Shown piece after piece: positions 1 through 22,683 of a stretch of DNA of 50,965 bases. The notes beneath the pieces are model-generated. The model was not told the origin of the DNA. It saw only the letters and a program-made list of their open reading frames with translations, and did no database searches. Position numbers and translations under genes: made by a program. Positions within the stretch are counted from its first letter, which is position 1; the number at the start of each line of letters is the position of its first letter. Source of the DNA: Candidatus Dadabacteria bacterium (lineage in GTDB: Bacteria > Desulfobacterota_D > UBA1144 > Nemesobacterales > Nemesobacteraceae); the NCBI GenBank assembly GCA_022827275.1, contig JAJDTG010000002.1:1-50965 (forward strand), written 5' to 3'.

Positions 1-281
1 ACGAGACACATGTCATCCACGGCAAAAAATTTGGCGTGCAGATCATGTCGCAAGTACAATTGTATAGATCTCGATTCAGCTAAGTCGTAGATTCCTAAGT
101 CCGAAGTTCCCGCAAGTAGGTCTGCTAAGCGCCATCGTGTAACAACTGTAGTTTTTGTACCGATTGGAATACTATCGAGGAGACGAGAAAACGCCTCGGA
201 CCGTATGAATGGTGCTACAATTAACACGTTTTGTTGAGCACCATTGAGGAGCGAAGAAAGTTCGTCTCCTAAGGTTTTCAT
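1..281 (-). CDS. Phospholipase D-like domain protein (N-terminal part, cut by window edge)
   Basis: Only the first 93 codons are inside the window and the gene runs off the left end. The visible part has one complete HxK(x4)D motif (His82, Lys84, Asp89), the signature of the phospholipase D superfamily, which includes nucleases such as Nuc and BfiI. The sequence before it is a short alpha/beta stretch rich in LIVAPF-type strands. The start ATG overlaps the stop of the upstream GHKL ATPase gene in an ATGA arrangement, so the two are probably translationally coupled. In a helicase-ATPase-PLD operon next to DNA phosphorothioation genes, the likely role is the nuclease of a restriction module; this is inferred from context. 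A second HKD motif, if present, lies outside the window. Confidence 0.75.
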   Translation of the reverse strand, partial: MKTLGDELSSLLNGAQQNVLIVAPFIRSEAFSRLLDSIPIGTKTTVVTRWRLADLLAGTSDLGIYDLAESRSIQLYLRHDLHAKFFAVDDMCL

Positions 282-2167
282 GTTTCGATTACCTTTAAGA
301 ATTTACGAGCTTCTCTTCCCCAATCCATTCGAATATCCTCAAGTCTTTCCTTTATTTCAGCCGGAACCTTGTCTTCGTGTCGGGCCCAAGCAATTAAAAG
401 CATTTTGAGTGTGAATTCAGCCTTTCGGAGGCGTTCAACAAGTTCTTCGGGAGACTGGTCTTCATTTCTAGTGGCCAAGACTTGAATAAGGTGTTTGTGG
501 ACTGGATGCTGGTCATTCAACCATATTTCAAGCAAATCGTTGACTGATTCGACGTCAAAGAAAGCATCTTGATGACCAAGGGTAACTGCCTTCATGAGTA
601 CACGACGGCCGCCACGAACGGTTTCTTCAGCCCACTCATAAGCAGTTTTGTCTTCAACCCTAACTTGCTTGGTTGACTCAACGATCTTTTGAATCTTCTC
701 TTCTTCGTTTGTCTCGGGGGCTCTATCACTATCTCCGGTGTCTCCTTTTTCCTTTTGTTCTTTAATGATTTTTGTTGCAACATCTTCGACCTCTTCGCCA
801 GTTTCCGGATGGCGGGTTTGTGGTCCTGTACCACGCATTATAGTTCTACGTTCAGTTCTCATCCGTCTGATTTGGTCGTCAATCCAGATCCAAATTTCGA
901 TAAGATCGGCCATAGGGTCGGATGTTTCCTTAAGTCGGTCAGAAAATTCACCGAATGTTTCTTCAGGATATTTCCATTCATCCAAATCGAACCCAGCACC
1001 TTTAACAAATGTATGAGCATGTTGTTTGTTATTCACAACCCCGAATATCTCATCAAGGATTGGGTCAAACTCAACTTCTACCGACCACCAACGTTCCTCC
1101 GGTTCGTAATTGTTTACCCAAGCTGTACTCATTTCAAGTTCACGGCGAGCCCGAACAATTGATATTCCTTTATTACGAGCAGCATGCTTCCCCCACGGTG
1201 CATCTCCGGCCTTTGAGTAAGATTTCGGCCATGGAATCTTGGATTTCTTCTCATTAATTGCGTCTGGACGCGCCATTGTACAACGTACATGGACTTCCCC
1301 TTGGGTGTTATTATTCTTGATCAACCATGTTCTTTCGTTGAATAATTTAAACATGGGTTTATCTTGGAATGGTTCAGGTGTTGAAGAGGGGCTTATCAAG
1401 TAAAGTGGGTCGTTGGGAAAACACTCGTTTTCCTGCTTAATGTCCAAATGGTTGTCTTTGTCAGAAGCAAGAATTAACTTGATCATAACTGGCTTTTCAT
1501 GATCTGTGAGAAACTTGCGGTAGATACGGCCACAGAGATCTGCTGTTCGCTCAATGGTTTTCCCCCCGCTGCGCCACTGAACTCGATCAAGTTTGCTCCA
1601 TACGACCAAGGTTCCGGCTGTTTCAGAGGTTGTTGTTGCTATCTCTTTCCACTGTTCTGGAACTGAAGAAGGGGTTGCTGGAGGTACTTCTTGTTGTCCA
1701 GTAGATTTGATTTCATCTAGGTCAAGATAGCAATGGAAAGCGTTGTCAGCACCGTTTTGCCATGTCCATACATCCACACGCCGACACTGCGAAATTGAGG
1801 ACTGAGGAAGTCCCACGCCAAAGCGACCTATGCCCCTTTTTGGGCGATTTAGACGGCGGGTCCCATCGCCAAATTTCAAAGCGCGTCTTAATGTTGTGCT
1901 ATTCATCCCTCCACCATTATCGGCAACAGCGATTTCGCTTACTTGAGGTCGCGCATAAGGCTTTTCTGGGTCCAATAGCTTTTCAACAGCTATAATCTCT
2001 ACTAGATCGGCTTTAGCTTCGACAGAATTATCGATGAGTTCCGCAAGTGCGTGATCGGTGTCCTTATAACCACTATCGCGCATTGCTTCAATTGTCAGTT
2101 CTGCCGAGACAATCGAAAAATCAAATTCTTGTTGAGTTGGTCTAGAATCTGTTATGTTTCGTTCCAT
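278..2167 (-). CDS. GHKL-type ATPase (HATPase_c fold)
   Basis: A 629-residue protein with a clear N-terminal GHKL ATP-binding domain like that of MutL, Hsp90, MORC and gyrase B. The N box is ELIDNS at residues 44-49, the G1 motif is DNGGGM at 83-88 and the G2 motif is GRFGVG at 114-119. The rest has no family I can name; a charged, Glu/Lys-rich segment near residues 450-510 looks flexible or coiled. The gene overlaps the helicase gene upstream by 16 bp and the PLD gene downstream by 4 bp, so the three form one operon. GHKL ATPases act as ATP-gated clamps, so this one may couple helicase loading to the PLD nuclease. That role is inference. Confidence 0.85.
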   Translation of the reverse strand: MERNITDSRPTQQEFDFSIVSAELTIEAMRDSGYKDTDHALAELIDNSVEAKADLVEIIAVEKLLDPEKPYARPQVSEIAVADNGGGMNSTTLRRALKFGDGTRRLNRPKRGIGRFGVGLPQSSISQCRRVDVWTWQNGADNAFHCYLDLDEIKSTGQQEVPPATPSSVPEQWKEIATTTSETAGTLVVWSKLDRVQWRSGGKTIERTADLCGRIYRKFLTDHEKPVMIKLILASDKDNHLDIKQENECFPNDPLYLISPSSTPEPFQDKPMFKLFNERTWLIKNNNTQGEVHVRCTMARPDAINEKKSKIPWPKSYSKAGDAPWGKHAARNKGISIVRARRELEMSTAWVNNYEPEERWWSVEVEFDPILDEIFGVVNNKQHAHTFVKGAGFDLDEWKYPEETFGEFSDRLKETSDPMADLIEIWIWIDDQIRRMRTERRTIMRGTGPQTRHPETGEEVEDVATKIIKEQKEKGDTGDSDRAPETNEEEKIQKIVESTKQVRVEDKTAYEWAEETVRGGRRVLMKAVTLGHQDAFFDVESVNDLLEIWLNDQHPVHKHLIQVLATRNEDQSPEELVERLRKAEFTLKMLLIAWARHEDKVPAEIKERLEDIRMDWGREARKFLKVIET

Positions 2168-3768
2168 ACATCCTCCCAGTTCATGAAGGCTTGGGCGACA
2201 TCGCCGAAACCTGGCAAGTTAGTGTCAACTACCGTAACTACTTTACAGTGTTTTGTCCCCCCTGCTTTAGGCCCTCTAATTACCCGACCTACCATTTGGC
2301 TGTACAACACCAAGGATTTTGTTGGACGAGCAATCAGTGCGGCACTTGCTGCTGGTGCGTCAAAACCTGTTGTAAGTACACCGTAATTGATTAATATTCG
2401 ATTCGGACCACCGGATCGCTTGAATTTCTGGATCACATGTTTCCGCTTCCAGGCATCAGTTTTGCCGGTAACTGCGTCTGCTTTTAGTCCCATGCCTCTA
2501 CAAACGCTCGCTAGGAGCAATGCATTATCGACGGAGGCCGCGAAAACGAGTATCCGTGAGTGAGTTTCTATAAGTTCAAGAAGACATTGAATAATGCGCA
2601 GATTACGTTGTTCATCCTCGCCAAATCGGGTGGCCAAATCATCAGAAATGTCCAATGTTTTTGATATCTCTGCTAGATCTTCAGTAGAGAGTTGGAGCCC
2701 TGGTTCAACATTGAGGAGAGAGAAATCAACTTCGGCGAGGTAACCTTCGTCGGTAAGGTGCCTAATTGGATTAGCTCCGTTGAAACTGATCATCACTTTA
2801 TTTCCACAAAACAACTCCGCTACAGCGGCATCTACAGTTGGATTTCCCCATGTTCGTCCAGGCGTCGCACTTAATCCCAGAAGTGGTGTCTTGGGATTTC
2901 GGGTAGCAACTGTCTCGATAATATCTCGGTAAGTTGTGGCTACCGCTTGGTGTGCCTCATCAAACACTACCATAGTTGTCCGATCACCAAGACTCCATAG
3001 CTTCTCGCGTTCTTTTCCATAGGAGTGCAGTTTAGCCAAGCCCGCGATAACTATGCCATCTGTAATTTTATCAATCTGTGGGTTATGACTTGACCAGAAC
3101 CGCAAACAATCAACTTGCCGATCTCCCAAAGCCCTCCAAGTCAATTCGAACTCTGTTGCTGCTTGCTCCAAAAGTTCACGAGTTGCTGCCAACCAGAGCA
3201 CCAGTCCTTTGGGACGGGTACGAAGATGGGACGCAACAATACTCATTGCCGTCCGTGTTTTCCCGGTACCTGTTGGGAGGTGTAGCATTGCGCGGCCTTC
3301 CTCAAAATATAGATATTGCTCAATATCGCTTGCGGCTCGTTTCTGGTGAGGAAATAATCCTCTTTCGGGCAACACGGTTTTAGCTGATTCGGAAGTAGTA
3401 GTTGTTTGATTAGCGATCGTTGCGAATCCAAAAAATCCTAAAAGATTTCGGCGTAAGGACTGCTCTAGTTTGTCTTTCTGACGTAATTGATTGATGCTTA
3501 TTCCGATTCGATCCTCTAGTTCCCCGATTTTGGATGGTGGTACGGTATTCAATAGAATTTCCCGTCTTTGAGTATCGTTTATGACAAGCTCAAGAGAGAG
3601 AGTTCTGCTAAGAGTTTCTACACGTTTCGAGCTATTGATGCGTTCGGGGTCGATTGTATTAATTAGGTTGAATGCCCCGGTGGGGAGAAGCTTCGCAGCA
3701 TGAAAATCGTCTAGTTTTTCACAAATCTGAAATGGTTGAACTCCTGGTAGTTCTGTGGAAATAGTCAT
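2152..3768 (-). CDS. DEAD/DEAH-box superfamily 2 helicase
   Basis: A 538-residue SF2 helicase. Residues 1-130 are a divergent N-terminal region. Motif I is PTGTGKT at 165-171, motif II is DEAH at 270-273 and motif III is SAT at 300-302; a VLTTGFDAP motif V and a QMVGRVIRG motif VI follow in the C-terminal RecA domain. The layout resembles type I/III restriction and DISARM-like helicases. It opens the helicase-GHKL-PLD operon, separated from the phosphorothioation genes by 217 bp that hold a promoter. I see no strong Shine-Dalgarno before the ATG. Its job is probably to translocate on or unwind invading DNA for the downstream nuclease. I could not confirm whether it equals one of the published SspF, SspG or SspH proteins. 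Confidence 0.88.
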   Translation of the reverse strand: MTISTELPGVQPFQICEKLDDFHAAKLLPTGAFNLINTIDPERINSSKRVETLSRTLSLELVINDTQRREILLNTVPPSKIGELEDRIGISINQLRQKDKLEQSLRRNLLGFFGFATIANQTTTTSESAKTVLPERGLFPHQKRAASDIEQYLYFEEGRAMLHLPTGTGKTRTAMSIVASHLRTRPKGLVLWLAATRELLEQAATEFELTWRALGDRQVDCLRFWSSHNPQIDKITDGIVIAGLAKLHSYGKEREKLWSLGDRTTMVVFDEAHQAVATTYRDIIETVATRNPKTPLLGLSATPGRTWGNPTVDAAVAELFCGNKVMISFNGANPIRHLTDEGYLAEVDFSLLNVEPGLQLSTEDLAEISKTLDISDDLATRFGEDEQRNLRIIQCLLELIETHSRILVFAASVDNALLLASVCRGMGLKADAVTGKTDAWKRKHVIQKFKRSGGPNRILINYGVLTTGFDAPAASAALIARPTKSLVLYSQMVGRVIRGPKAGGTKHCKVVTVVDTNLPGFGDVAQAFMNWEDVWNET

Positions 3769-3985: not shown

Positions 3986-4825
3986 TTATTTGTGACAGAC
4001 AATGCACGACGCAGATACTTCTGGGACTCCATATATTTCGTCAATCTCTATACATTCGAGACCTTCATGGAGTGGGTTTCCTTGTTTGCGGCTTTTCTCT
4101 CTTTCAACCCGTTTACGATAGTCTCTTTTTATTTCTTCCACTCGCTTTGGGTGTTCAAGTTCCGAAAGAGACTCGTTCTCACTCCAAGTAAAAGGTGAAC
4201 CATGCTGCAAAGCGGTCTTTTCATAACGTTTTGCTTCTTCAAAGGCTTCAGGATGTTCATCTTTTAGTCTTACCCACTCGATTTTTTGCTGAAAGAAGCA
4301 AAACGTGCAACCACTACGGGACCGCCAACGGTAATAACTGGGAAGCCCAAGTCCCGAGGATTCAAGCAGGTTAATTACACCTGCCTTATCAACCCCATTC
4401 TCTCTGAAAGGAAATTTGACCTGAAGATTGGCATGGGTGGTTTGCATACCTAATCGTTCCGGCTCATCGGCTCTGATAGCAATATAGCTAAATACCTTTA
4501 TCCCAGACTCCAAATCACTTTTAATCCATTGCTCAAATGGTCTTAGCTTAAGTTGGCGTGTACACCACCTAGAGCGCGCCGAGGGAAGATAGTTGCCGTA
4601 TTGGCGAAGCCAGAAATCAAAATCCCGATCGGGATTAAGTCTTTCTATAGGTTTTCCCAAGAATCCCTCAAGGTGGCCGAGAAACTCATAAACCTCTGGC
4701 AACTCCTTGCCTGTATCGGTAAAGAAGTAATGAATATTAAGATCGGGATAATGTTGCCGCATAAATACAGCTAGTGCTGCACTGTCACGGCCACCCGATA
4801 AACCTAAAACATGTTTTTCCTTCAC
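3986..4825 (-). CDS. sspD: Phosphoadenosine-phosphosulfate-reductase-like sulfurtransferase (SspD/DndC-like)
   Basis: A 279-residue PP-loop ATP pyrophosphatase of the PAPS reductase family. The loop SGGRDS is at residues 10-15. Cysteines at 88, 173, 176, 258, 274 and 277 could supply an Fe-S cluster; the CxxC at 173-176 and the CIVC tail at 274-277 stand out. In Dnd and Ssp systems this protein activates a DNA backbone phosphate with ATP and passes sulfur from the cysteine desulfurase to DNA. It ends the sspA-B-C-D series, 20 bp after sspC. A plain assimilatory PAPS reductase is less likely because the neighbours are a desulfurase, a DUF4007 protein and a large ATPase and not sulfate assimilation genes. 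The symbol is assigned from family and synteny, not from a search. Confidence 0.82.
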   Translation of the reverse strand: MKEKHVLGLSGGRDSAALAVFMRQHYPDLNIHYFFTDTGKELPEVYEFLGHLEGFLGKPIERLNPDRDFDFWLRQYGNYLPSARSRWCTRQLKLRPFEQWIKSDLESGIKVFSYIAIRADEPERLGMQTTHANLQVKFPFRENGVDKAGVINLLESSGLGLPSYYRWRSRSGCTFCFFQQKIEWVRLKDEHPEAFEEAKRYEKTALQHGSPFTWSENESLSELEHPKRVEEIKRDYRKRVEREKSRKQGNPLHEGLECIEIDEIYGVPEVSASCIVCHK

Positions 4826-4845: not shown

Positions 4846-7800
4846 CTATGTCTTTATTGATATATGTTTTAAAGTTTCCGCTAAAGCGGCTAGCTTCTGT
4901 TTGTTATTAATACCGTTTTTGCTAAGAACGGACTCTATGTCTTGTGCCAGCATTAAGATTTCTTCTTTTTCATCTTCGGTTATATCAAAAGTTTCGATCA
5001 TAGTATAGCCATTTTCTCCTGTACCGAACATTAAAGCTAAAGCCTCGGAGGTTGGATTTCGCTTTTTTAACTGTGCCAGCATTTCCGCCTGACGGAACTT
5101 AAGTGCAAAGTCTGCGATTTGGATCATAGCAGCTTTAGGATCGTTATCGGACCATTCACGAACTGGTTTGTTGATTGCCAAGCTTGCAATTGATTCCATA
5201 TCTTCTAGAGCATCGGAGAATTCTTCAAGTCTTCCCGCGAATGCGTCAAGACGAAAGTTTCCAGTTATGCCATGAACAATTTTTGCTCGTAGACGCAAAA
5301 ATTCCAGGTTTGGGTTTCTTTGTCCTAGTGCTTCGAGCATGTTTTCGCGTAGCTCCATCATCATTTTCGGATACCCGTCTTCAAGTTCTTTTAGTATATC
5401 TTTAATGAATCCGCCGAAGTGTTCGTAGGACTGTTGGTCCTGAAGCGGATTTCTCTGGAGCTTATCGGTTTCAAAGATAATTGGCAGATCCACAAACAGC
5501 GCCTGAATGGGATCGCTAGCTGATAACAGTACCCCGCGCACCTTTCGGGCTTCATCGGAAATTGAAGATGTTCTTTTTGTCCAGGTAGGAAGTTTGAGTA
5601 TGAACCGTACTAGAGCTCTTGCAATCTCAAGAGGTTTTTGGGGAACTGGATTGTCGCTGACTTGATTGGCCACATGCCACAGAGACTCGAGTAATTTCTC
5701 ATTGCGTTCTCCTAGGTCGACCCAGCGGAGTTCAATTGTGCTGTTCTTTTGCAATAAAAAGTCTACTACTAATTCGTTTATTTCCGTCTGGAATATTCCC
5801 TCATTGTAAACTGCGACCGATGTACGGTTTGTCATTACGAAAGCCATTGCGAGAATGGGCAGAACCCCGCGACGTATGCCAAACGGAGGAGATGTCCAAT
5901 GTTCATATATTTTCGAGACAGAGACGATCTGGTTTTCTTTGAGAATCTTTTCGGTTTCCTCCCAAAGTCGAAAAACTCGTTTGTTTTTTTTGTTTCCCGA
6001 CAAAGGTTTAAGAAACCCGTCAGCGTCGTTTTTTGTTTTGCCGTGGAGATCTAGAGCTTCAAGAACGCTTCTGTATATTCCCAGTTCAGAGGGAAAACTC
6101 TTTATACCGAGATTTTCTTGGTCGGGATGGTTTACCATGGCGTAAAGCAATTTCCGTATTGCCGCTTGTCCATTTCCCGAGGGCTTCTCCCGGTTAACTA
6201 ATTCCGTACGAATATTTGGCGCATCCGGAAATGTTTCATCTGCTAGCTTTGAAGCAAAGACCGACAAAGAAAAAGTTATTCTTGCTTGCCTACGACGTCC
6301 TCCGACAAACCATCTGGTTTCATTGAGAGAACTCTTTAAAATGGTTTGTAGTTGTTCTTTTACTATGGTGATTCTTGCCTCGATTTCTCGCCTTGCTACA
6401 GAATCGCCTTCAAGCTCAGGGTTGTTTCTTTTGATGTCGTGCAAGGCACCTAGTTCTTTGCCCAAATCGTTTATGCGCTCATAGCTGGGGCTGAATCCTA
6501 CAGCAACTGGATAATCGCTAACAACCGACTTAGACGCTTCTTTGCAAATGGTGCTTATGTCTTCCCTACTATAATTATTTTCAGTTGAAACAACTAAAAA
6601 GAATACCCCCGCCGTTCCATCGGTCGGATGAAAATTTCTTGCTAAATCGCATACTTTTTCAGCCGATACGATTTCTACTTTGAACCACCTTAAAGTACCG
6701 GTCTCGTGATAATGTTTTTTGGCTATAACGGGGCGCATTTGAACTAGGTTGCCAAGTTGTTCTATATTCAACTTTCTTGCAACGAGTTCTTTTTGAAGCG
6801 AGCTCTCAATGTCAAAATCACTGCCTGCATATATAGCCCATGAATTAAAATGTTTTCTGAATATTACGGCTGACCATTTCTCTATATCCTTGAGTGCTTT
6901 TCCTATATCGCTTTCTTTGGCTTCCGCAACACAAGTTTTTAAAACTTCGTTCTCCGGCATAAGCCCGGACCCGTGTCGGAACATCTCAATAACCGCAATT
7001 GTCTTGGCAAGCTTTACATGTAGAGGGGTGCCTCTGGCTTCACAAAGTGCTACTGACTCTACAGACTGAGCCCATCTGTGGCTGTCTGCAGATACCATAA
7101 TTGCCGACTCAAGGTTGACTTTCAGATAATCCCACAAGCGCCATGGTTCATACGTAGTTCCCATGGCTTCAGTTGACTTCAGGAAATCCTGAAAACCTTC
7201 GGGTTCACTTGATCCGAGGAAACCGAATACGCTTCTCTCATTCTGTCCGAATCGCCATCGGGACAGAGGCCCAAGCAGCACGGCTGTTGCAGGATGAATG
7301 GGCCAACAGGAGTCGAGGCAAGTGGCGAAATCAGATGGAATACCGGCCCGTCTGTTCCTTATTGAATTTGCTATGATCTCTGCCGTTGCAAAACTTTCAG
7401 GGTGCTCCAAGTCTGTCTCTATTGCTTTACTTATTAAATCGACTACTTCTTCAACGGCTGTAACAAGGGGAATATCGACGTAACGCCCCTGTACCTTGGC
7501 CCACTCTTTGCGCGCCTCCTCTCCAAGGCGGGAGGCGTATTGTTCAAATGATTGATGGAGAATTCCTAATACTACAAGCCGTCCTTTAGTGCGACTTGCT
7601 AACTCGGCGAGTTCTTGAAAAAAGTGAATGTCTTCTCCCTGCCGGGTGGCTTCTTCAAGGTATTTGCCCATTTCATCTATTACAAGCAGAACCCCGTTTC
7701 CGGGGCGTTTTTCAGCTTTTTTCCGAAGAAGTTTTATGATAGCTTTTGCCGATTGCCCAGACAGGTTTTCTTCTTCCGTCCGAAAGAGTTTTTTTCTAAG

Positions 7801-8184
7801 ATCGTTTATTAAATCACCTCTATGTCCAATTAACGGAATAACAATCCAGCCCGGTTCATCTGACGGGAAAGCTTCCTCAAAGTAAGGAAGCCCTTTTGTG
7901 AGTTTTTTGGCTTGTTGGTTGAGGGGGTTATTAGCAAGGGATGCACATAGAACTAGGGCTAGGCTTGACTTGCCTGCGCCGTAGGGGCCGGTACAGGTAA
8001 AAGCCCGGCGGTTGGACTCCACAATCATTTGGGCCATTCTTTGCAACGCATATTTAGCCGAATCGTGAAAAACAAATCCGTCGAGGGCTTCAGGAATCTC
8101 TAGGTCGGTATCAATACGTGCGGATTGCTGAAAAGTCTTGGCTATCTTGATTTCTTTGGCAAGCAGCATTTTATTCTGAATCAA
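4846..8184 (-). CDS. sspC: Large P-loop ATPase of the phosphorothioation system (SspC-like)
   Basis: An 1112-residue ATP-binding protein. Walker A GPYGAGKSS is at residues 66-74 and Walker B VLLVIDEMGK at 165-174, giving an AAA/ORC-like N-terminal NTPase. The remaining roughly 800 residues are mostly helical and charged, with no catalytic motif I can name. Similar large ATPases sit between DUF4007 and PAPS-reductase-like genes in Ssp loci, where they are needed for DNA sulfur insertion. The TTG start overlaps the sspB stop by 4 bp, which argues for coupled translation; an in-frame ATG five codons later is an alternative. Length and position match the expected third gene of the set. Confidence 0.8.
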   Translation of the reverse strand: MIQNKMLLAKEIKIAKTFQQSARIDTDLEIPEALDGFVFHDSAKYALQRMAQMIVESNRRAFTCTGPYGAGKSSLALVLCASLANNPLNQQAKKLTKGLPYFEEAFPSDEPGWIVIPLIGHRGDLINDLRKKLFRTEEENLSGQSAKAIIKLLRKKAEKRPGNGVLLVIDEMGKYLEEATRQGEDIHFFQELAELASRTKGRLVVLGILHQSFEQYASRLGEEARKEWAKVQGRYVDIPLVTAVEEVVDLISKAIETDLEHPESFATAEIIANSIRNRRAGIPSDFATCLDSCWPIHPATAVLLGPLSRWRFGQNERSVFGFLGSSEPEGFQDFLKSTEAMGTTYEPWRLWDYLKVNLESAIMVSADSHRWAQSVESVALCEARGTPLHVKLAKTIAVIEMFRHGSGLMPENEVLKTCVAEAKESDIGKALKDIEKWSAVIFRKHFNSWAIYAGSDFDIESSLQKELVARKLNIEQLGNLVQMRPVIAKKHYHETGTLRWFKVEIVSAEKVCDLARNFHPTDGTAGVFFLVVSTENNYSREDISTICKEASKSVVSDYPVAVGFSPSYERINDLGKELGALHDIKRNNPELEGDSVARREIEARITIVKEQLQTILKSSLNETRWFVGGRRRQARITFSLSVFASKLADETFPDAPNIRTELVNREKPSGNGQAAIRKLLYAMVNHPDQENLGIKSFPSELGIYRSVLEALDLHGKTKNDADGFLKPLSGNKKNKRVFRLWEETEKILKENQIVSVSKIYEHWTSPPFGIRRGVLPILAMAFVMTNRTSVAVYNEGIFQTEINELVVDFLLQKNSTIELRWVDLGERNEKLLESLWHVANQVSDNPVPQKPLEIARALVRFILKLPTWTKRTSSISDEARKVRGVLLSASDPIQALFVDLPIIFETDKLQRNPLQDQQSYEHFGGFIKDILKELEDGYPKMMMELRENMLEALGQRNPNLEFLRLRAKIVHGITGNFRLDAFAGRLEEFSDALEDMESIASLAINKPVREWSDNDPKAAMIQIADFALKFRQAEMLAQLKKRNPTSEALALMFGTGENGYTMIETFDITEDEKEEILMLAQDIESVLSKNGINNKQKLAALAETLKHISIKT

Positions 8185-9110
8185 TTCTTGGTATAAGCGA
8201 GATCGAGAAGGTCTATTGATTCTATATTCTCTTCGAACCTAGTTACGTTTCTTATCCCCGAAGTATCAGTCCACTGAAAGCGGCCACCTGAACTCTCTCC
8301 TATTCTTACGAGTCGTTCAACCAAAGACTGTTCGTCAAGTTTGAAGACTCGTCCGGGCGAACCTGGAGCATAGGTCAGAGTTTCTACCGAAACGGAGTTC
8401 GGATTAGATATTTGATTCCGCCAAAATTCATTCAAGGAGTAAAGAAAAACACCTTCGGGCAGGCTTGGTTTCGGTCCATAGTTAAACTCGTACATGTGGG
8501 ACCCGATTGGGCTGATGAGTTCCAATTCCGACAGAACAGATTCTATTGAGTCTTCAGAAAACTTTTCACTTCCTTGATGAACATAACTTCTAAGAAAACA
8601 TTCAACATCTCTTTTTATAGTTGTCTCAGAGGTGCGTTTCCATCCCCGTTTTTCACATAGATTTAGTATGGATTTGACTATGTCTTCACGTTCAAATTTC
8701 CTTTCAGAGAAGTAGTTAAAGGCATAATACCAAGTTGAGGTTCTCTCCCATCGTCCTGCTACCATCCAATGTATAAGCCACAAGGTAGCTTCTTTTTCCA
8801 TAAAAGGGTCGTGGCCGGTTCCTGGCTTAAAAAGAAAATCACCTAATTCAGTTGGTCTGAAGGTTTTATCTTTAACTTCTATAATATTGCAAGCAAGGGC
8901 CCAATGGCGAATTGAATTCACCATGTTTTTCCCTACGCCGAAATTCACTATGGCGTCGGGGTCGGAGAACGGGTTTTTTCTGAGATTTTCTTCGCTTAGG
9001 TCGGCAACTTTTTCATAAGCCTTATATAACCAAAGATATCTAAGCGGAAAGGTCTCGTGACCTGTAAATTGTCCTTTGGTGGCTTCGTCTGCTAGGGGTC
9101 CCGTGTACAC
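8181..9110 (-). CDS. sspB: DUF4007 protein (SspB-like)
   Basis: A 309-residue DUF4007 protein recognised from its N-terminal signature GQFTGHETFPLRYLWLYKAY at residues 14-33. DUF4007 proteins recur in predicted defence islands with PAPS-reductase-like and cysteine desulfurase genes. As I recall the literature, SspB of the SspABCD system is of this type and is described as a nicking enzyme needed for single-stranded phosphorothioation. The product is probably a DNA-binding protein that selects or nicks the site for sulfur insertion. It overlaps sspC by 4 bp and follows sspA after 68 bp, so it belongs to the same operon. No membrane segment or signal peptide is visible. Confidence 0.78.
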   Translation of the reverse strand: MYTGPLADEATKGQFTGHETFPLRYLWLYKAYEKVADLSEENLRKNPFSDPDAIVNFGVGKNMVNSIRHWALACNIIEVKDKTFRPTELGDFLFKPGTGHDPFMEKEATLWLIHWMVAGRWERTSTWYYAFNYFSERKFEREDIVKSILNLCEKRGWKRTSETTIKRDVECFLRSYVHQGSEKFSEDSIESVLSELELISPIGSHMYEFNYGPKPSLPEGVFLYSLNEFWRNQISNPNSVSVETLTYAPGSPGRVFKLDEQSLVERLVRIGESSGGRFQWTDTSGIRNVTRFEENIESIDLLDLAYTKN

Positions 9111-9178: not shown

Positions 9179-10336
9179 TTAAACATTAGGAGAAGTGACA
9201 CAATTTCTGACTTGGATGGCTTTTTCAGAAATCAGGTCTATAGCGCGATTAACTTCTTCGATAGAGGTAAACCTGCCATATCCGAGACGGATAGAAGAGT
9301 TTATCTCGTCTATGTTAAGTCCTAATGCGGCGAGTACATAGGAAGGCTCAACAATACCGGCATTACAGGCGGCTCCGGTTGAGAAGGCAACTTTATCTTG
9401 GAGTGCGGTAACAAGCGCATCTGAATCAACGCCGGGAAGTTGTATGTTAAGGTTGCCGGGAATTCTTTGGTTCAAGTCTCCGTTAATTACTAGGTCCGGG
9501 AAATGAGTATGCAGTTTGCCTATTAGGGTGTCTCGGAGCAACAAATTGTGTTCTCGGTCTTTTTCCATTTCCTCATCAGCGATTCTGCAGGCTTCGCCGA
9601 GACCTGTGCAAAGAAATGCGGGTACTGTGCCGGCACGTAAATTGTTTTGCTGTGCTCCTCCGAAAATAATCGGTTCGATTTTTGAAGAATAGTGGTGAGA
9701 TACGTACAGTGCTCCTATACCCTTTGGACCGTAAACCTTATGGCCGGATATGCTGAGTAGGTCAATTTTCATTTCTTTAACATTTATCGGAACCTTGCCT
9801 ATTGCCTGTGCCGCATCTACGTGAAACGTGATACCTTTCTTGCTACATAATTCTCCAATTTCTTTAATTGGCTGAATGGTTCCGATCTCATTATTGACGA
9901 ACATAACAGAGACCATGATAGAGTCTTTGTTAAGAGCAGATTCTATTTTTTCAACGTCAACGATTCCGTTTTTTCCCACGGGAACCATATCAACTAGGCA
10001 CCCGTATTTTCTCATAGCGAGTGCGGTATTAAGCACGCACTTGTGTTCGATTGAAGTTGTAAGCAAGTGCTTCGCTTTAGATTTGTTATTGCGCAGAATC
10101 CCCTGAATGGCCAAATTGTTTGATTCGGTAGCTCCTGATGTAAAGAGTATTTCTGATGGTTCTGCTCCTATGGTTAGGGCAATTAACTCCTGTGCTTTGT
10201 CAATTGCCTCGGCGGATTTCCAGCCAAAAATGTGTTCGGAATGTGGGTTGCCAAACCACCGTGTCATGTACGGTTGCATTTTTTCGACAACCCTGGGGTC
10301 TAATGGAGATGTAGATTGATAATCAAGAAAGATCAT
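9179..10336 (-). CDS. sspA: Cysteine desulfurase (SspA/DndA/IscS-like)
   Basis: A 385-residue PLP enzyme of the NifS/IscS class. The PLP lysine is Lys200 in SGHKVYGPKG, the cofactor-contacting His-Val-Asp is at 172-174, and the sulfur-accepting cysteine is Cys324 in STGAACNAG. It removes sulfur from L-cysteine as a persulfide. Housekeeping IscS normally sits with iscR, iscU and iscA; here it heads a leftward series of DUF4007, ATPase and PAPS-reductase-like genes. A dedicated sulfur donor for DNA phosphorothioation is therefore the best reading. It could also serve tRNA or Fe-S sulfur metabolism. The start ATG at 10336 gives the usual N-terminus, IFLDYQSTSPLDP, so no extension is needed. Confidence 0.88.
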   Translation of the reverse strand: MIFLDYQSTSPLDPRVVEKMQPYMTRWFGNPHSEHIFGWKSAEAIDKAQELIALTIGAEPSEILFTSGATESNNLAIQGILRNNKSKAKHLLTTSIEHKCVLNTALAMRKYGCLVDMVPVGKNGIVDVEKIESALNKDSIMVSVMFVNNEIGTIQPIKEIGELCSKKGITFHVDAAQAIGKVPINVKEMKIDLLSISGHKVYGPKGIGALYVSHHYSSKIEPIIFGGAQQNNLRAGTVPAFLCTGLGEACRIADEEMEKDREHNLLLRDTLIGKLHTHFPDLVINGDLNQRIPGNLNIQLPGVDSDALVTALQDKVAFSTGAACNAGIVEPSYVLAALGLNIDEINSSIRLGYGRFTSIEEVNRAIDLISEKAIQVRNCVTSPNV

Positions 10337-10458: not shown

Positions 10459-11715
10459 CTACGTTAATTTTTTTCCTGCCTTTTTACACTGCTTGGTTAC
10501 TATCTGCTCAATACGTTGCAGTGCGGGACATTCACCAAAGCGGTTTTTAAACAGATCTCGCGTTGGAATCAAGTTCTCAAGCAGTCGGGAGGCGAGCTCG
10601 TCAACAAGATCAAGTAGATATCGCGGTCGGATATCGCATTGCTTAGCCATATCTTCCCAATGGCGTTTGACAATTACGCCGGGATTTCTTTCATTTCCAA
10701 CCGACAATGCTAAGTGATGGTCAATTCCTTCTATAGCTCGGGTGCACACGAGATCGTAGAATGGGGCCAACCGGATCTCTCCGTTTGCCTTATAAAGAAG
10801 TGATAGGTTCTTTGTGTGACCGTCGGAATTGCCTGCGAGCACATTAAAAATTTGCCAGCGCAGCAAATGCGGGAGATCCGTTGCCGGCTCACTCGATACA
10901 TCCCCAAGCATCCGGTAGCATTGCGCGAATGAAGGACCGCCGTCTTCCTGATATTTTTTTTCATATCCATATCCAAGTGCTTGGCAGAAATCTTCCTGAT
11001 GTGCCCGCAGCACCTTTCCTTCTCTATTTAGGAAGCGGTCGTACCGTTCTATAATTGTGTAATGGACATTATTTATGGATCGCAACTGGATATTAACAAC
11101 GGGAAGACCGACAGCCTGAGCGAGTAATACGGTGAAGGTCTCATAGGCGGGCACATTACGGTATTCCGCAATCTCAAACTTGAGTATGTGGCTCGAAGGA
11201 GATTCACCCTGTGGAAGCAAATATTTCTCTTCCCGCACAAGAATCGGGACTTTGTTTTGGGCACCGGCTAGTGAAAATCTTGGCCTTTCTTCTCCTGACC
11301 AGGAGTATGAGTGTCCATGTTGAGTGACCCAAGCCATTAGTTCTTCATCGTCTATTAGACGGTAGCGTTGTTCCGTTGAAGGTTGCCGTTCTTCCGGGAG
11401 AACAGATAAAGCGCCTGCGCATTCACCACCTATAGCTCGTAGCAAATTAAAGTCTGTATTAGATATTTTCAGGTCGCGGGCTGTACGTTCCCGGAAACCG
11501 GCTTCGGGAAGCAGATTGGCGAAGAAGCTGTGGGCAATACCTTCTTCCGCCTTAAATTCCTCCGCGCTGAGAGGGAGACTCTGCGAGATAGCAAATCCCT
11601 CGCCCGAAAGCCAGCTGGGGTGATAACAAAAACTTATGTGGCCGAAAGAATCTCGTTGCAGGCGGCCTACCAGGCGTTGCCCGTTCCATACATTTAGCGC
11701 GTCGGGATCACCCAT
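10459..11715 (-). CDS. hipA: HipA-family serine/threonine kinase toxin
   Basis: A 418-residue HipA protein with the N-terminal subdomain at about residues 5-110 and the kinase-like C-terminal domain after it. Visible kinase elements are FSLAGAQNK (148-155), HILKFE (176-181), the catalytic Asp298 in GNSDGHTKN and the metal-binding Asp321 in APFYDL. HipA toxins phosphorylate targets such as glutamyl-tRNA synthetase and slow growth. The start overlaps the hipB stop region by 8 bp, a typical antitoxin-first pair. It lies 122 bp upstream of sspA in the same orientation, so readthrough into the phosphorothioation genes is possible. All key residues look intact, so the toxin is probably functional. 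Confidence 0.88.
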   Translation of the reverse strand: MGDPDALNVWNGQRLVGRLQRDSFGHISFCYHPSWLSGEGFAISQSLPLSAEEFKAEEGIAHSFFANLLPEAGFRERTARDLKISNTDFNLLRAIGGECAGALSVLPEERQPSTEQRYRLIDDEELMAWVTQHGHSYSWSGEERPRFSLAGAQNKVPILVREEKYLLPQGESPSSHILKFEIAEYRNVPAYETFTVLLAQAVGLPVVNIQLRSINNVHYTIIERYDRFLNREGKVLRAHQEDFCQALGYGYEKKYQEDGGPSFAQCYRMLGDVSSEPATDLPHLLRWQIFNVLAGNSDGHTKNLSLLYKANGEIRLAPFYDLVCTRAIEGIDHHLALSVGNERNPGVIVKRHWEDMAKQCDIRPRYLLDLVDELASRLLENLIPTRDLFKNRFGECPALQRIEQIVTKQCKKAGKKLT

Positions 11716-11992
11716 AGGTTTTTCTCTGGCTCTTGATAATCTGGGATGAGGGTGTCACCCCGCGGGGTTGGACTATGACTTCAAGCCCAACGGTTCGTAG
11801 TGCTTTTAATATTTTTCCGATCTCTGAGGTTTCTTTGCCCCGTTCGAACTCGGAAAGAAAACGAGGGCTTAGATTTCCTAGTCCAGAAACTGTTTCAAGC
11901 GTCAAGTGTCGGTTTTTCCGGTGATCGCGAACTACACGTCCTAATCCTGCTGCCGATTGGATAATTCCATATTGTGGGTTTTGTTTTTTCAT
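11708..11992 (-). CDS. hipB: HipB-like Xre-family antitoxin
   Basis: A 94-residue DNA-binding protein with a helix-turn-helix of the Xre/Cro type at about residues 18-70 (GLGRVVRDHRKNR, then LSPRFLSEFERGK as the recognition region). The short C-terminal tail VIVQPRG resembles the beta-strand by which HipB proteins dimerise. It precedes and overlaps hipA, so it should neutralise the kinase and repress the shared promoter. The A/T-rich upstream region carries a 13-bp direct repeat and a 12-bp inverted repeat that could be its operators. A GGAG lies about 16 nt before the ATG, rather far for a ribosome binding site. Confidence 0.85.
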   Translation of the reverse strand: MKKQNPQYGIIQSAAGLGRVVRDHRKNRHLTLETVSGLGNLSPRFLSEFERGKETSEIGKILKALRTVGLEVIVQPRGVTPSSQIIKSQRKTYG

Positions 11993-12620: not shown

Positions 12621-14327
12621 CTACCTCTTTAACTTGTAGCCGGCCTCCACCATGTCCCAGGTGTCTTTAGTCACTCCCTGTTCGCGTAGCTTGTTCTTCT
12701 GAGTTCTCTGCGTACCAGTCTTCGGGAAGGAATCTACAGACCTTATAAATCTTGGAATCATGAAGTAGGGCATTCTGGGCTGAAGGTAATCCATCAGTTC
12801 CGGGGGGTCTACCTCTTTTCCTTCCTTTGGAATCACGAGTACCATGAGCTCGTCTTCCGCGTATTTCCCGGCTTCTGACTTTATGCCTATCGCGGCCGAT
12901 TCCTCGACGTTGGGGTGGGAGTTGACGATTTTCTCTACCTCGAAGGAGCTTATGTTCTCGCCCCTTCTTCTTATGTAGTCCTTGACCCTGTCAACAAAAT
13001 ATATGTAGCCGTCTTTGTCCATTCTTCCCGCGTCGCCCGTGTGGAACCAGAAATTTCTGAAATCCTCGACGGTCTTCTCGGGCATCTTGTGATAATAGTG
13101 AAGCATCACGTTCGGTATTCTGGGACGCACTATGATTTCCCCTATGCTTCCCCTCGGCACCTCCTCGTCCGTCTCGGGGTCAGCGATCTTTATCTCGTAG
13201 TTTGGGGCTTCCTTTCCGCAGGACCCCACCCTGAAAGGCTCTCCCGGTCTCATCCAGGTGCACTGGCCTATTTCCGTCAGGCCGTAGCCTTCCATGAACT
13301 TTATCCCGAAGCGCTCCATGAACTCCTCTATCATGTCGTGGGGGGCGGGCGAGCCGAGAACGAGCTTTATTTTATGCTGTCCCTCCTCCGGCACAGGAGG
13401 GGTGTTCCAGAGAAAGTACGACATGGTTCCCACGGTGTTGAACTTTGTCACCCCGTGGTCGACCATCCATTTCCAGAAGCGGCTTGAGCTGTATTTCTCC
13501 TCCACTACGGTTTTCGCTCCCTTTATCAGCGCCGGGTAGACAGTCATCACCATGGCGTTTGAATGGAAAAGCGGAAGGCACGTGAAGCACACGTCTTCAG
13601 GGCCGACATCCATTATCTCGGCGTAGTTCCTTGCGCTGCTGTAATCGGCGGCGCAAGGTCTCATGACCCCTTTTGAGCGGCCCGTGGTGCCGGAGGTGTA
13701 CATGAGCCTCGCGTAGTCCATGAATGTGACCTCGACGTCCGGCTCCCTGCCAGAGCCCGAGTTTATGAATTCTGAGTAGGAGATCATTTTGCGGAATCTG
13801 TATCCGTGTCTTTTAAATTTCTTATCCCCGCTTCTTGTCCAGACTATGACATGGCGAAGCTTGGAGAGATTCTTCGCTATGGGGGGCATCCGGTCCAGAT
13901 ACTCTTCCGCTATGAAAAGCACTTCCGCGTCCGAGCTGTCGATTATGTATTCAAGAAAGTCCATCTTGTAGGCCGTGTTTATGGGTACCATCACGGCTCC
14001 CATCTTGAGGATTCCGAACCAGGTTATTACGTAGTCATCGGAGTTAGGCATGTAAACGGCGACCTTTTTCGCTTTTTCCACCCCGAGGTCGCAAAGGGCG
14101 TTTGCCACGCGGTTAGCGAGACGGTTTGTCTGGTAGAAACTCAGGGGCTTTTTGTAGCCGAACTGAAGAAAGGGTTTTTTGCCCAGCTTTTTCGCCTGTT
14201 CGCGAAGCACCTTGGGAAGCACCCAGTTCGAGCGGTCTTCCTTGAGGTACCAGTTGACGTCGAATTTCCCGTTCTCGCGCTTGTAGGTGACGGGGTGCAA
14301 GAGGTCCTTAGATTTCTTTCTTGTCAT
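12621..14327 (-). CDS. Acyl-CoA synthetase (AMP-dependent, CaiC/long-chain FadD-like)
   Basis: A 568-residue ANL-superfamily ligase that activates a carboxylic acid to acyl-AMP and then acyl-CoA. The phosphate-binding loop MYTSGTTGRSKG is at residues 209-220, the YGLTEIG adenine-contact motif follows near 345, and a hinge and GDAGRMDKDGYIYFVDRVKDYIRRRGENIS-type region sits near 445-475. Wording such as YHKMPEKTVEDFRNFWFHTGD is typical of crotonobetaine/carnitine-CoA ligase relatives. The substrate cannot be told from sequence. No beta-oxidation or carnitine genes are adjacent. It is the first core-type gene right of the island and lies 59 bp downstream of tatC in the same direction. Confidence 0.85.
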   Translation of the reverse strand: MTRKKSKDLLHPVTYKRENGKFDVNWYLKEDRSNWVLPKVLREQAKKLGKKPFLQFGYKKPLSFYQTNRLANRVANALCDLGVEKAKKVAVYMPNSDDYVITWFGILKMGAVMVPINTAYKMDFLEYIIDSSDAEVLFIAEEYLDRMPPIAKNLSKLRHVIVWTRSGDKKFKRHGYRFRKMISYSEFINSGSGREPDVEVTFMDYARLMYTSGTTGRSKGVMRPCAADYSSARNYAEIMDVGPEDVCFTCLPLFHSNAMVMTVYPALIKGAKTVVEEKYSSSRFWKWMVDHGVTKFNTVGTMSYFLWNTPPVPEEGQHKIKLVLGSPAPHDMIEEFMERFGIKFMEGYGLTEIGQCTWMRPGEPFRVGSCGKEAPNYEIKIADPETDEEVPRGSIGEIIVRPRIPNVMLHYYHKMPEKTVEDFRNFWFHTGDAGRMDKDGYIYFVDRVKDYIRRRGENISSFEVEKIVNSHPNVEESAAIGIKSEAGKYAEDELMVLVIPKEGKEVDPPELMDYLQPRMPYFMIPRFIRSVDSFPKTGTQRTQKNKLREQGVTKDTWDMVEAGYKLKR

Positions 14328-21000: not shown

Positions 21001-22683
21001 CTAGCCGGTCTTCCATGTTTTAACCGCCTGATCAGCGAGCCAGGACTGGTAATTGTTAAGACTGGCCAGATCCCAGCAGTCGTATTCTGCGATCTTCCTA
21101 GGCAGCTTGAAGGGAGTTTCGAGATAGTGCGACTTCTTGGTGGCAAAATCATCACGTTCCAAGGAGTCCTGTTCCAAAAGCAGCATATTCCCTAGTCGGT
21201 CTGCGATATCATTTGCTCCCTCGCCAAAATCCCGATACCACTCCGGACTTGGATTGTATGGGCAGATGTGCTCAAGTTTTGTATCAAGGTATCTGACCTT
21301 GCGGCCTAGTTTGCTTTCTATCTCGGCCAGCAGGAAGCGGATTTTTTTGGATGAGCGCCGACTAGGCATCTTGTAATACTCAAAAGCGTTCTTGAATGCC
21401 TTGTCGGAAGGATAGAGACTTTTATAATCGGAGCTGTTCTTAACGTGACTTGCGCGTTTGAATTCACCGCTGGCTATTTTGATGGCGATGCTGTTGTAAC
21501 GCCTCTCTTGCTGGTTTGCTGAATATCCGCAAATCACGTTATAACGAATTGACAAGCAATAGAGATACCGTAGCGTCTTGATGAACTCAGGGGGTGAAAA
21601 CTTCTCAAACGCTGTCATTAACACCATATAGGGCTGCCGTATGCCGAAAAGCTTCAAACCTTCAAGGAAATGCACAGCCTTTTTATATTTTCCTCCCGCG
21701 TGCTGCTGCCACCACTGGTCATAAGGGCTGGATAACAGCGCATATAAAGGAGCCGAGTCTGTTAATGACCTTAGGTATCCATGTGCTTGCTCGGGCGTGG
21801 TATAAAGTTGCCTTACCGATTTGAACAATTCTCTTTTGGTTGAAAAAGGACTGCGGGAATTGTGGTGATAACGGACAAAATCAGTAAAGTTGTTCTCTCC
21901 TAATTCATCAAGAATCTTTGACCAGGTTTCATCAAGATCATCCAGTGTTTCGTCGGGCACGTCATCATTTTTGGTAACCACTGAAAAAATATAGTTTTTT
22001 AAAAGATCGGGCGTTGAAAGCTGTACTCCTCTGGCATTTAGTGTTTCAAACACCTTGTAGGCGTTTAGATTGTCCCGCACCACAATTTTCGTGAAAATCA
22101 ATCTGGATGAGAATCTGTTGATAAATGCACCGATTTCCTCGCCGCTATTTCCCAGATTCTTGCTGCAGAAGAACTCGAAGGCTTTGCTCAGCAGTCTGTT
22201 GGTCGCGGTAATTCCCCGGCTATTGGACGCGCGGAGATTGGAACAGATATCCTTGTAAAAACGTCCATTGTTGCGATTAAGTGTCAGCCTGCTGCTCACT
22301 CGCAATGAGACGATATCTTTTGATCCGATATAGCGTCCTGTGATCTCTTTCAGACGCTCTTCGTTTTTCTCGGTATCTTTACCTTCCTCAGCCAATTGCT
22401 GAATGTGTCGCATTGCAGCCAGGATCAGCAGGGAAAGCGTAACTAGGCGTTGCTGGCCATCTATCACTTCGAAATCATTCTGGCCCTTGCGTTGTAATAC
22501 TATATAACCCATATAGTGAAAGCCTTCCTGTTCTAGGTTTTCAATATCCGCCCACAGGTCTTCCCACTGTTCCTGCTCCCAGGAATAATCCCGCTGAAAG
22601 TGTGGTACGGTATATTTGGCTGCGTTGCCCAGCAGCTCGGACAGGCTTTGATTGGCAGGTTCCATCAGCATAAAGCCGCTCAT
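21001..22683 (-). CDS. DUF262/DUF1524 protein, GmrSD-type restriction nuclease
   Basis: A 560-residue single-chain protein. The N-terminal DUF262 half has FQRDYSW at 29-35 and DGQQR at 75-79, the ParB/sulfiredoxin-like nucleotide-binding motif. The C-terminal DUF1524 half has LEHICP with His472 followed by W and a LGNMLLL segment, the His-Me-finger-like HxxP site. GmrSD enzymes of this architecture cut glucosylated hydroxymethylcytosine DNA, and relatives such as BrxU and SspE-like proteins sense other DNA modifications. The gene stands alone between phoH and an epimerase gene and looks richer in A/T than its neighbours, suggesting acquisition. Whether it recognises base or phosphorothioate marks is open. 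Confidence 0.83.
   Translation of the reverse strand: MSGFMLMEPANQSLSELLGNAAKYTVPHFQRDYSWEQEQWEDLWADIENLEQEGFHYMGYIVLQRKGQNDFEVIDGQQRLVTLSLLILAAMRHIQQLAEEGKDTEKNEERLKEITGRYIGSKDIVSLRVSSRLTLNRNNGRFYKDICSNLRASNSRGITATNRLLSKAFEFFCSKNLGNSGEEIGAFINRFSSRLIFTKIVVRDNLNAYKVFETLNARGVQLSTPDLLKNYIFSVVTKNDDVPDETLDDLDETWSKILDELGENNFTDFVRYHHNSRSPFSTKRELFKSVRQLYTTPEQAHGYLRSLTDSAPLYALLSSPYDQWWQQHAGGKYKKAVHFLEGLKLFGIRQPYMVLMTAFEKFSPPEFIKTLRYLYCLSIRYNVICGYSANQQERRYNSIAIKIASGEFKRASHVKNSSDYKSLYPSDKAFKNAFEYYKMPSRRSSKKIRFLLAEIESKLGRKVRYLDTKLEHICPYNPSPEWYRDFGEGANDIADRLGNMLLLEQDSLERDDFATKKSHYLETPFKLPRKIAEYDCWDLASLNNYQSWLADQAVKTWKTG

Follow-up and report, generated by a model that had tools for sequence, protein, structure and literature searches.

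Phosphorothioation (PT) of DNA is accompanied by several effectors named in the literature, namely DndFGH, PbeABCD, DndI, SspE and SspFGH. The three proteins of SspFGH are a Walker-A protein (SspF), an unannotated protein (SspG) and an FtsK-like protein (SspH) (PMC8092258), and PbeABCD pairs with the Dnd genes (DndCDEA), with 58% solitary (PMC6459918, PMC10853773). No SspE or SspFGH was found with 84% of 2,678 sspBCD clusters, and it was asked whether these clusters have further partners or are true orphans (Wang et al. 2021, PMC8092258). Here we describe a stretch of 50,965 nucleotides of Candidatus Dadabacteria bacterium (contig JAJDTG010000002.1, analysed whole and called the window below), in which the genes of a superfamily 2 (SF2) DEAH helicase, a MORC-like GHKL ATPase and a phospholipase D (PLD)-superfamily nuclease, together the trio, lie beside sspABCD. 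None of the named effectors is composed like the trio, which is a real and conserved effector module within the Ssp family and apparently has not been described before. We propose, with a probability of about 0.6, that single-strand phosphorothioation of the SspABCD type has in the trio a third restriction module in addition to SspE and SspFGH, one in which a split motor-nuclease and a MORC-type ATPase act together and sulfur-marked DNA is spared.

The three genes of the window are:

2152..3768, minus strand: SF2 DEAH helicase/translocase gene, 538 amino acids (PF04851 + PF00271)
278..2167, minus strand: GHKL (MORC-like) ATPase gene, 629 amino acids (PF13589, 76.7 bits)
<3..281, minus strand: PLD-superfamily nuclease gene, first 93 amino acids with the HxK active site, cut at the contig end

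As the preliminary description of this DNA had stated, these genes form an overlapping operon, with 16 bp shared by the helicase and GHKL genes (2152-2167) and 4 bp by the GHKL and PLD genes (278-281), and the HxKx4D motif of the PLD protein is intact, being present as HAKFFAVD in the 93-residue fragment. The position of the trio downstream of sspD was also correct; however, a gap of about 217 bp separates sspD from the helicase gene, and the trio is therefore a tight unit of its own, without translational coupling to sspD. Only the first 93 PLD codons are contained in the window because it begins where contig 17 (G000:C17) of a 1.77-Mb genome of 25 contigs ends, and a search of this genome with the PLD N-terminus, looking for the remainder, gave just the cut copy. 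A complete PLD gene of 302 codons was found in identical gene order in a genome of the same genus, G012 (L019:10975-11880), showing 89% (GHKL), 94% (helicase) and 96% (PLD fragment) identity with the window. The arrangement is not due to chance, since about 68 loci that are unrelated to each other share the gene order and a spacing close to zero; between GHKL and PLD it was mostly -4 bp, and for 67 of 68 loci the values lay between -58 and +17 bp.

A GTDB-wide contig scan gave 298 relatives, and the neighbourhoods of the best 80 were assessed. We found sspB, sspC or sspD within 10 kb at 76 of these 80 loci, and the exceptions (L080, L087, L098 and L101) were short contigs or lay near a contig end. 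Among plasmids, tblastn yielded 12 records in which 80% or more of the GHKL query was aligned; 11 of these long matches (the twelfth was a second Trichormus record) and a Treponema plasmid with a partial match were examined, and ssp genes were present beside the GHKL gene in all 12. Four of five loci in viral contigs had sspB, sspC or sspD nearby, and a scan of the viral contigs with a single SspC sequence gave no matches. All five unlinked loci, four genomic and one viral, were about 0.2-2.7 kb from a contig or stretch end. The hosts include members of Actinomycetota, Cyanobacteriota, Pseudomonadota, Bacteroidota, Bacillota and Acidobacteriota, as well as of Verrucomicrobiota, Gemmatimonadota, Chloroflexota, Armatimonadota and Latescibacterota. 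Linkage of the trio to sspBCD is near-obligate. The central idea of the preliminary description, an effector of motor, ATPase and nuclease that is tied to phosphorothioation, withstood the survey of co-occurrence proposed there, with 76 of 80 genome loci and 12 of 12 plasmids linked: the trio was found with sspBCD nearly always and not mostly without PT genes.

The presence of DUF4007 and of full-length GHKL was also compared genome by genome, which is independent of neighbourhood bias. Of 291 cyanobacterial genomes, 33 had DUF4007 and 10 had full-length GHKL, all 10 falling within the 33 (hypergeometric p = 9e-11, with genome relatedness uncorrected); in Bacteroidota, the two genomes with full-length GHKL, the centre genome being excluded, both carried DUF4007. 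The GHKL matches were split into a long-match class with 314-905 bits versus N-terminal-only paralogues with about 76-122 bits, and the latter occurred without DUF4007 with the single exception of G1313. An unrelated defence system merely co-located with ssp in islands might have been suspected from the variable island that trio and ssp share with HipBA, but such hitchhiking predicts many trios elsewhere; a linkage of about 95-100%, in many phyla and four arrangements, largely refutes this explanation, which we regard as hardly credible.

The relative arrangements of the trio and sspBCD were four, observed at 45, 28, 13 and 2 loci. Sequence-distance correlations were 0.90-0.98 within SspABCD and 0.81-0.92 within the trio, and 0.61-0.85 between them. 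These arrangements and the weaker correlation between the modules indicate two modules that were shuffled and repeatedly rejoined.

The frequency of the trio was determined in a sample of 1,293 genomes from five phyla, four of them picked for containing the trio; matches to DUF4007 were taken with about 20 kb around them, extended if cut, and 58 loci had both SspB and SspC. The trio was present at 16 of the 58 (95% interval about 17-43%), or 17 if G978, with its trio on another contig, is counted. SspFGH was present at nine and SspE at two by profile, plus two DUF262 proteins by motif, and at the rest neither trio, SspFGH nor SspE-like gene was recognised. The SspE and SspFGH counts are lower bounds because the profiles were built from few seeds. 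In this evenly drawn sample of 58 loci the trio is the commonest of the three effector types, and it may therefore account for some of the sspBCD clusters (84%) regarded as orphans, for a part of which it is a concrete and widespread answer. More tentatively, and at somewhat less than even odds, it could be a third, possibly the commonest, class of Ssp effector, whose MORC-type ATPase would read DNA sulfur and gate a split motor-nuclease, explaining a large share of those orphans. A different ssp-like subtype was observed at L166, L167 and L172-L189, mostly in Bacteroidota, where DUF4007 and SspC occur with a divergent PAPS reductase across SspB; this reductase scores about 40-60 bits to SspD, and no effector was recognised at those loci.

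The same counts bear on whether the trio aids modification and is not an effector, through DNA opening for the insertion of sulfur into a single strand or through repair of the SspB nick. PT formation needs nicking by SspB (cited in PMC8092258), and a helicase and a nuclease could help in it. However, SspBCD and a cysteine desulfurase suffice for PT in E. coli (PMC8092258), about 70% of the sampled ssp loci had no trio, and the trio has an evolution of its own as a module, so that we consider such a role very improbable.

The helicase has intact GTGKT, DEAH, SAT and QMVGRVIR motifs and is a ResIII/DEAD-type SF2 protein according to its Pfam domains (PF04851 + PF00271). Its nearest curated family was RadD (112 bits), its nearest match in a defence family was PbeA (85 bits, PADLOC), and the solved structures matched by its profile were RadD and SauUSI. 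The 629-residue GHKL ATPase is MORC-like by both sequence and fold: its motifs (ELIDN, DNGGGM, GRFGVGLP and FGVVNNKQ) are intact, the closest solved structures by sequence were MORC2, MORC4 and MORC3, and the fold matches were SMCHD1, MORC2, MORC3, MORC4, Hsp90 and MutL. The MORC S5 motif GhXhhpXXRhl defined by Iyer et al. 2008 (PMC2292703) was matched at 10 of 11 positions by GISIVRARREL (334-344), position 10 being an invariant E where a hydrophobic residue is expected. No E/H pair spaced as in the ExxxH motif of paraMORC2 was found among the conserved GHKL columns, and the MZA (MzaB) equivalog gave 82 bits against a cut-off of 850, with the N-terminal ATPase alone aligned.

In the PLD protein, residues H82, K84, S96, N98 and E113 (numbering of the L025 protein) were invariant across 44 homologues, and HxK and GSxN were found in nearly all homologues. 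Each chain has one HxK...GSxN...E set, a feature of single-HxK PLD nucleases of the Nuc/BfiI type. The structure model (predicted local distance difference test score, 92) had SauUSI as its best PDB fold match, followed by NucT, Nuc and R.NgoAVII, and a sequence search with the PLD protein also retrieved SauUSI (7clg). The PLD protein and the helicase thus resemble, by sequence and fold, two halves of SauUSI, and because of this homology the pair is expected to act like a split SauUSI or CglI.

In the mechanism that we regard as most likely, the PLD protein would form a dimer whose chains share a single HxK active site, and this dimer would make the DNA breaks, and the SF2 helicase would be physically coupled to it and driven by ATP along DNA, as in SauUSI and CglI. 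By its likeness to MORC2 and MutL, the GHKL dimer suggests itself as the candidate clamp on DNA that is gated by ATP: it would form on ATP binding, close round DNA and control the loading or release of the motor-nuclease. DNA marked with sulfur by SspBCD would be spared and unmarked incoming DNA attacked. We infer antiphage action, DNA cleavage, complex formation, translocation and the protective role of sulfur.

Sulfur could also license the trio and not shield DNA from it, the trio being harmless alone and idle until it meets PT-DNA, after which it attacks foreign DNA. SspE acts so with the same SspABCD (PMC8092258, PMC13251355), and the near-obligate linkage to sspBCD fits a module that is useless without PT as well as one that is toxic without it. 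On the other hand, the PT-paired helicase/nuclease machines SspFGH and DndFGH act on unmodified DNA, and a harmless module should at times persist alone, while no credible solitary copy was seen. The absence of solitary copies is compatible with both shielding and licensing and mildly favours shielding; we regard licensing as unlikely.

Loci departing from the three-gene plan were also found. The PLD gene was present, in tight overlap, in 68 of the 80 loci and absent from ten loci of adequate length, mostly of the Nostoc group. The Walker A motif of the helicase was lost in six of these ten versus none of 67 loci with PLD, the Fisher value of 9e-7 being overstated since the PLD-lacking Nostoc loci are related; in two PLD-lacking loci that were checked, an HNH_4 gene preceded the helicase remnant. 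The PLD-lacking Nostoc loci look like an effector replacement in progress. Nostoc loci without PLD and with the helicase cut before Walker A, a different gene standing ahead of it, were seen at L056:7768-8922 and L085:3425-4558, and in the L067, L072, L096 and L100 region. Two rhizobial plasmids, L013 and L015, have kept the GHKL gene beside a motif-degenerate helicase, and their third gene is unrelated to PLD:

L013:9028-10107: unrelated third gene, 359 amino acids, DxVDI...QVKSSK motif
L015:15792-16871: unrelated third gene, 359 amino acids, DxVDI...QVKSSK motif

A Pfam search with this third gene gave no meaningful match; our guess, from the DxVDI...QVKSS motif, is that it may encode a PD-(D/E)xK nuclease.

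The loss of PLD from some loci is also what might be expected if the trio acted in the manner of PbeABCD, with the motor and a MORC-type compaction binding and remodelling unmarked DNA and halting replication, and with PLD being accessory or a nicking enzyme. PbeA is a relative of the helicase (85 bits), MORC ATPases compact DNA, and PbeABCD halts replication without visible cleavage (PMC6459918). Against this stand the invariant catalytic residues of PLD and the retention of its tightly overlapping gene in 68 of 80 loci, and we consider a block of this kind improbable.

Several points weigh against a restriction module with shielding by sulfur. No sulfur-binding domain was recognised in the helicase, GHKL or PLD protein, and the trio is separated from sspD by the 217-bp gap. 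Nor do the three parts go together without exception, because the Nostoc loci and L013/L015 keep GHKL without PLD. PbeABCD, with a related HKD-helicase, was reported to block replication with no detectable cleavage (PMC6459918), and a nuclease fold is therefore no proof of cleavage. Finally, the proposal is drawn from sequence, fold and gene context.

The genes of the modification set are localised upstream of the trio:

3986..4825, minus strand: sspD, PAPS-reductase family (PADLOC SspD, 446 bits)
4846..8184, minus strand: sspC, BrxC-like ATPase (PADLOC SspC, 1248 bits)
8181..9110, minus strand: sspB, DUF4007 (PADLOC SspB, 363 bits; PF13182, 296 bits)
9179..10336, minus strand: sspA, cysteine desulfurase (PADLOC SspA, 490 bits)

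Judged by these matches, the SspABCD set of the window is unequivocally genuine, with all four components present. A HipA-like kinase and its helix-turn-helix partner, a HipBA-type toxin-antitoxin (10459-11992, minus strand), adjoin sspA in the same variable island, which is bordered by an acyl-CoA synthetase gene (12621-14327). In four genomes of the same genus (L225, L226, L229 and L230) the acyl-CoA synthetase and Ppx/GppA genes are adjacent and island-free, so that their junction marks the integration site of the island. At this site G012 contains ssp, trio and HipBA, G013 ssp and G007 HipBA; the window, as far as the contig end, matches G012. The site is thus a variable defence site. A DndB-like gene (PF14072, 90.6 bits) adjoins PLD in G012 (L019:9483-10766, plus strand) and was not found in a search of the window genome; similar genes, perhaps encoding a regulator, recur next to the trio at L008, L011, L071, L076 and L089. 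The preliminary description had noted the lack of an SspE-like gene, and indeed the ssp island of the window has no gene for a protein with DUF262 and DUF1524. A DUF262/DUF1524 (GmrSD-like) gene at 21001-22683 (minus strand), about 11 kb from the island, is a separate defence candidate; it was rejected as SspE, having 682/573 bits to HEC-06/Orf5 versus 54 bits to SspE (PADLOC).

With regard to known systems, the trio is not represented by any model of PADLOC 2.0 or NCBIfam (2026), and no PT-linked GHKL/PLD/helicase module was found in the literature searched, whose reach did not extend to subscription journals and most preprints. The suggestion in the preliminary description that the trio may correspond to SspFGH is excluded by its composition and by plasmid L013, which has separate SspF, SspG and SspH genes (787, 726 and 2427 bits) besides the helicase-like and GHKL genes. 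The comparison with hidden Markov models of SspF, SspG and SspH, also suggested there, gave no match for the trio proteins (PADLOC), and the third gene of the trio encodes the 302-residue PLD protein and not the FtsK-like C-terminal domain of the third gene of SspFGH. Both are three-gene effectors beside sspBCD, with a proposed ATP motor and a single-strand PT partner, but SspFGH has neither GHKL nor PLD and no homology to the trio. SspE is likewise a partner of sspBCD; in contrast, it is a single DUF262-DUF1524 GTPase-HNH protein. DndFGH was rejected, since just a weak TIGR04095 similarity of the helicase was seen (52 bits versus a cut-off of 600) and the modification genes are ssp.

PbeA, an HKD nuclease and SF2 helicase, includes the nearest helicase among named PT effectors, and both activities are represented in the trio, as two genes. 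However, PbeA is fused, PbeC is an ABC ATPase, PbeD is a DndE and there is no GHKL protein in PbeABCD (PMC6459918, PMC10853773). The identity of the trio with PbeABCD was rejected, no CxC-ABC ATPase (PbeC) or DndE-like PbeD being present in the trio or in the gap between trio and sspD.

Outside PT, SauUSI has a PLD dimer and an SF2 translocase, and the PLD and helicase of the trio match the same chain (PDB 7CLG, PMC7913695), but it is one polypeptide without GHKL, in which an SRA domain targets modified cytosine (PMC7913695). In CglI and NgoAVII the PLD nuclease and the SF2 ATPase are separate proteins and act obligately together (PMC4267653, PMC5737866), and the PLD dimer has a single active site, R.NgoAVII being a fold match of the trio PLD; these two systems differ in being methylation-based, in the B3 DNA-binding domain of the R protein, in the Z1 domain of the N protein and in having no GHKL (PMC4267653, PMC5737866). 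If the proposal is true, a split PLD-motor enzyme is added to the PT effectors. In the paraMORC/MORC restriction operons described by Iyer et al. 2008 (PMC2292703), the gene of a GHKL-S5 ATPase is likewise accompanied by genes for an SF2 helicase and a nuclease. They are DNA methylase-linked, however, and the text of that paper mentions neither phosphorothioation nor PAPS reductase; Anabaena variabilis and Nitrococcus mobilis, which carry the trio, are named in its figure legends. GHKL-helicase-nuclease restriction operons were thus already foreseen there (PMC2292703), and the trio, if our proposal is true, would give MORC-type ATPases, which compact chromatin in eukaryotes, a bacterial role in reading a mark on the DNA backbone.

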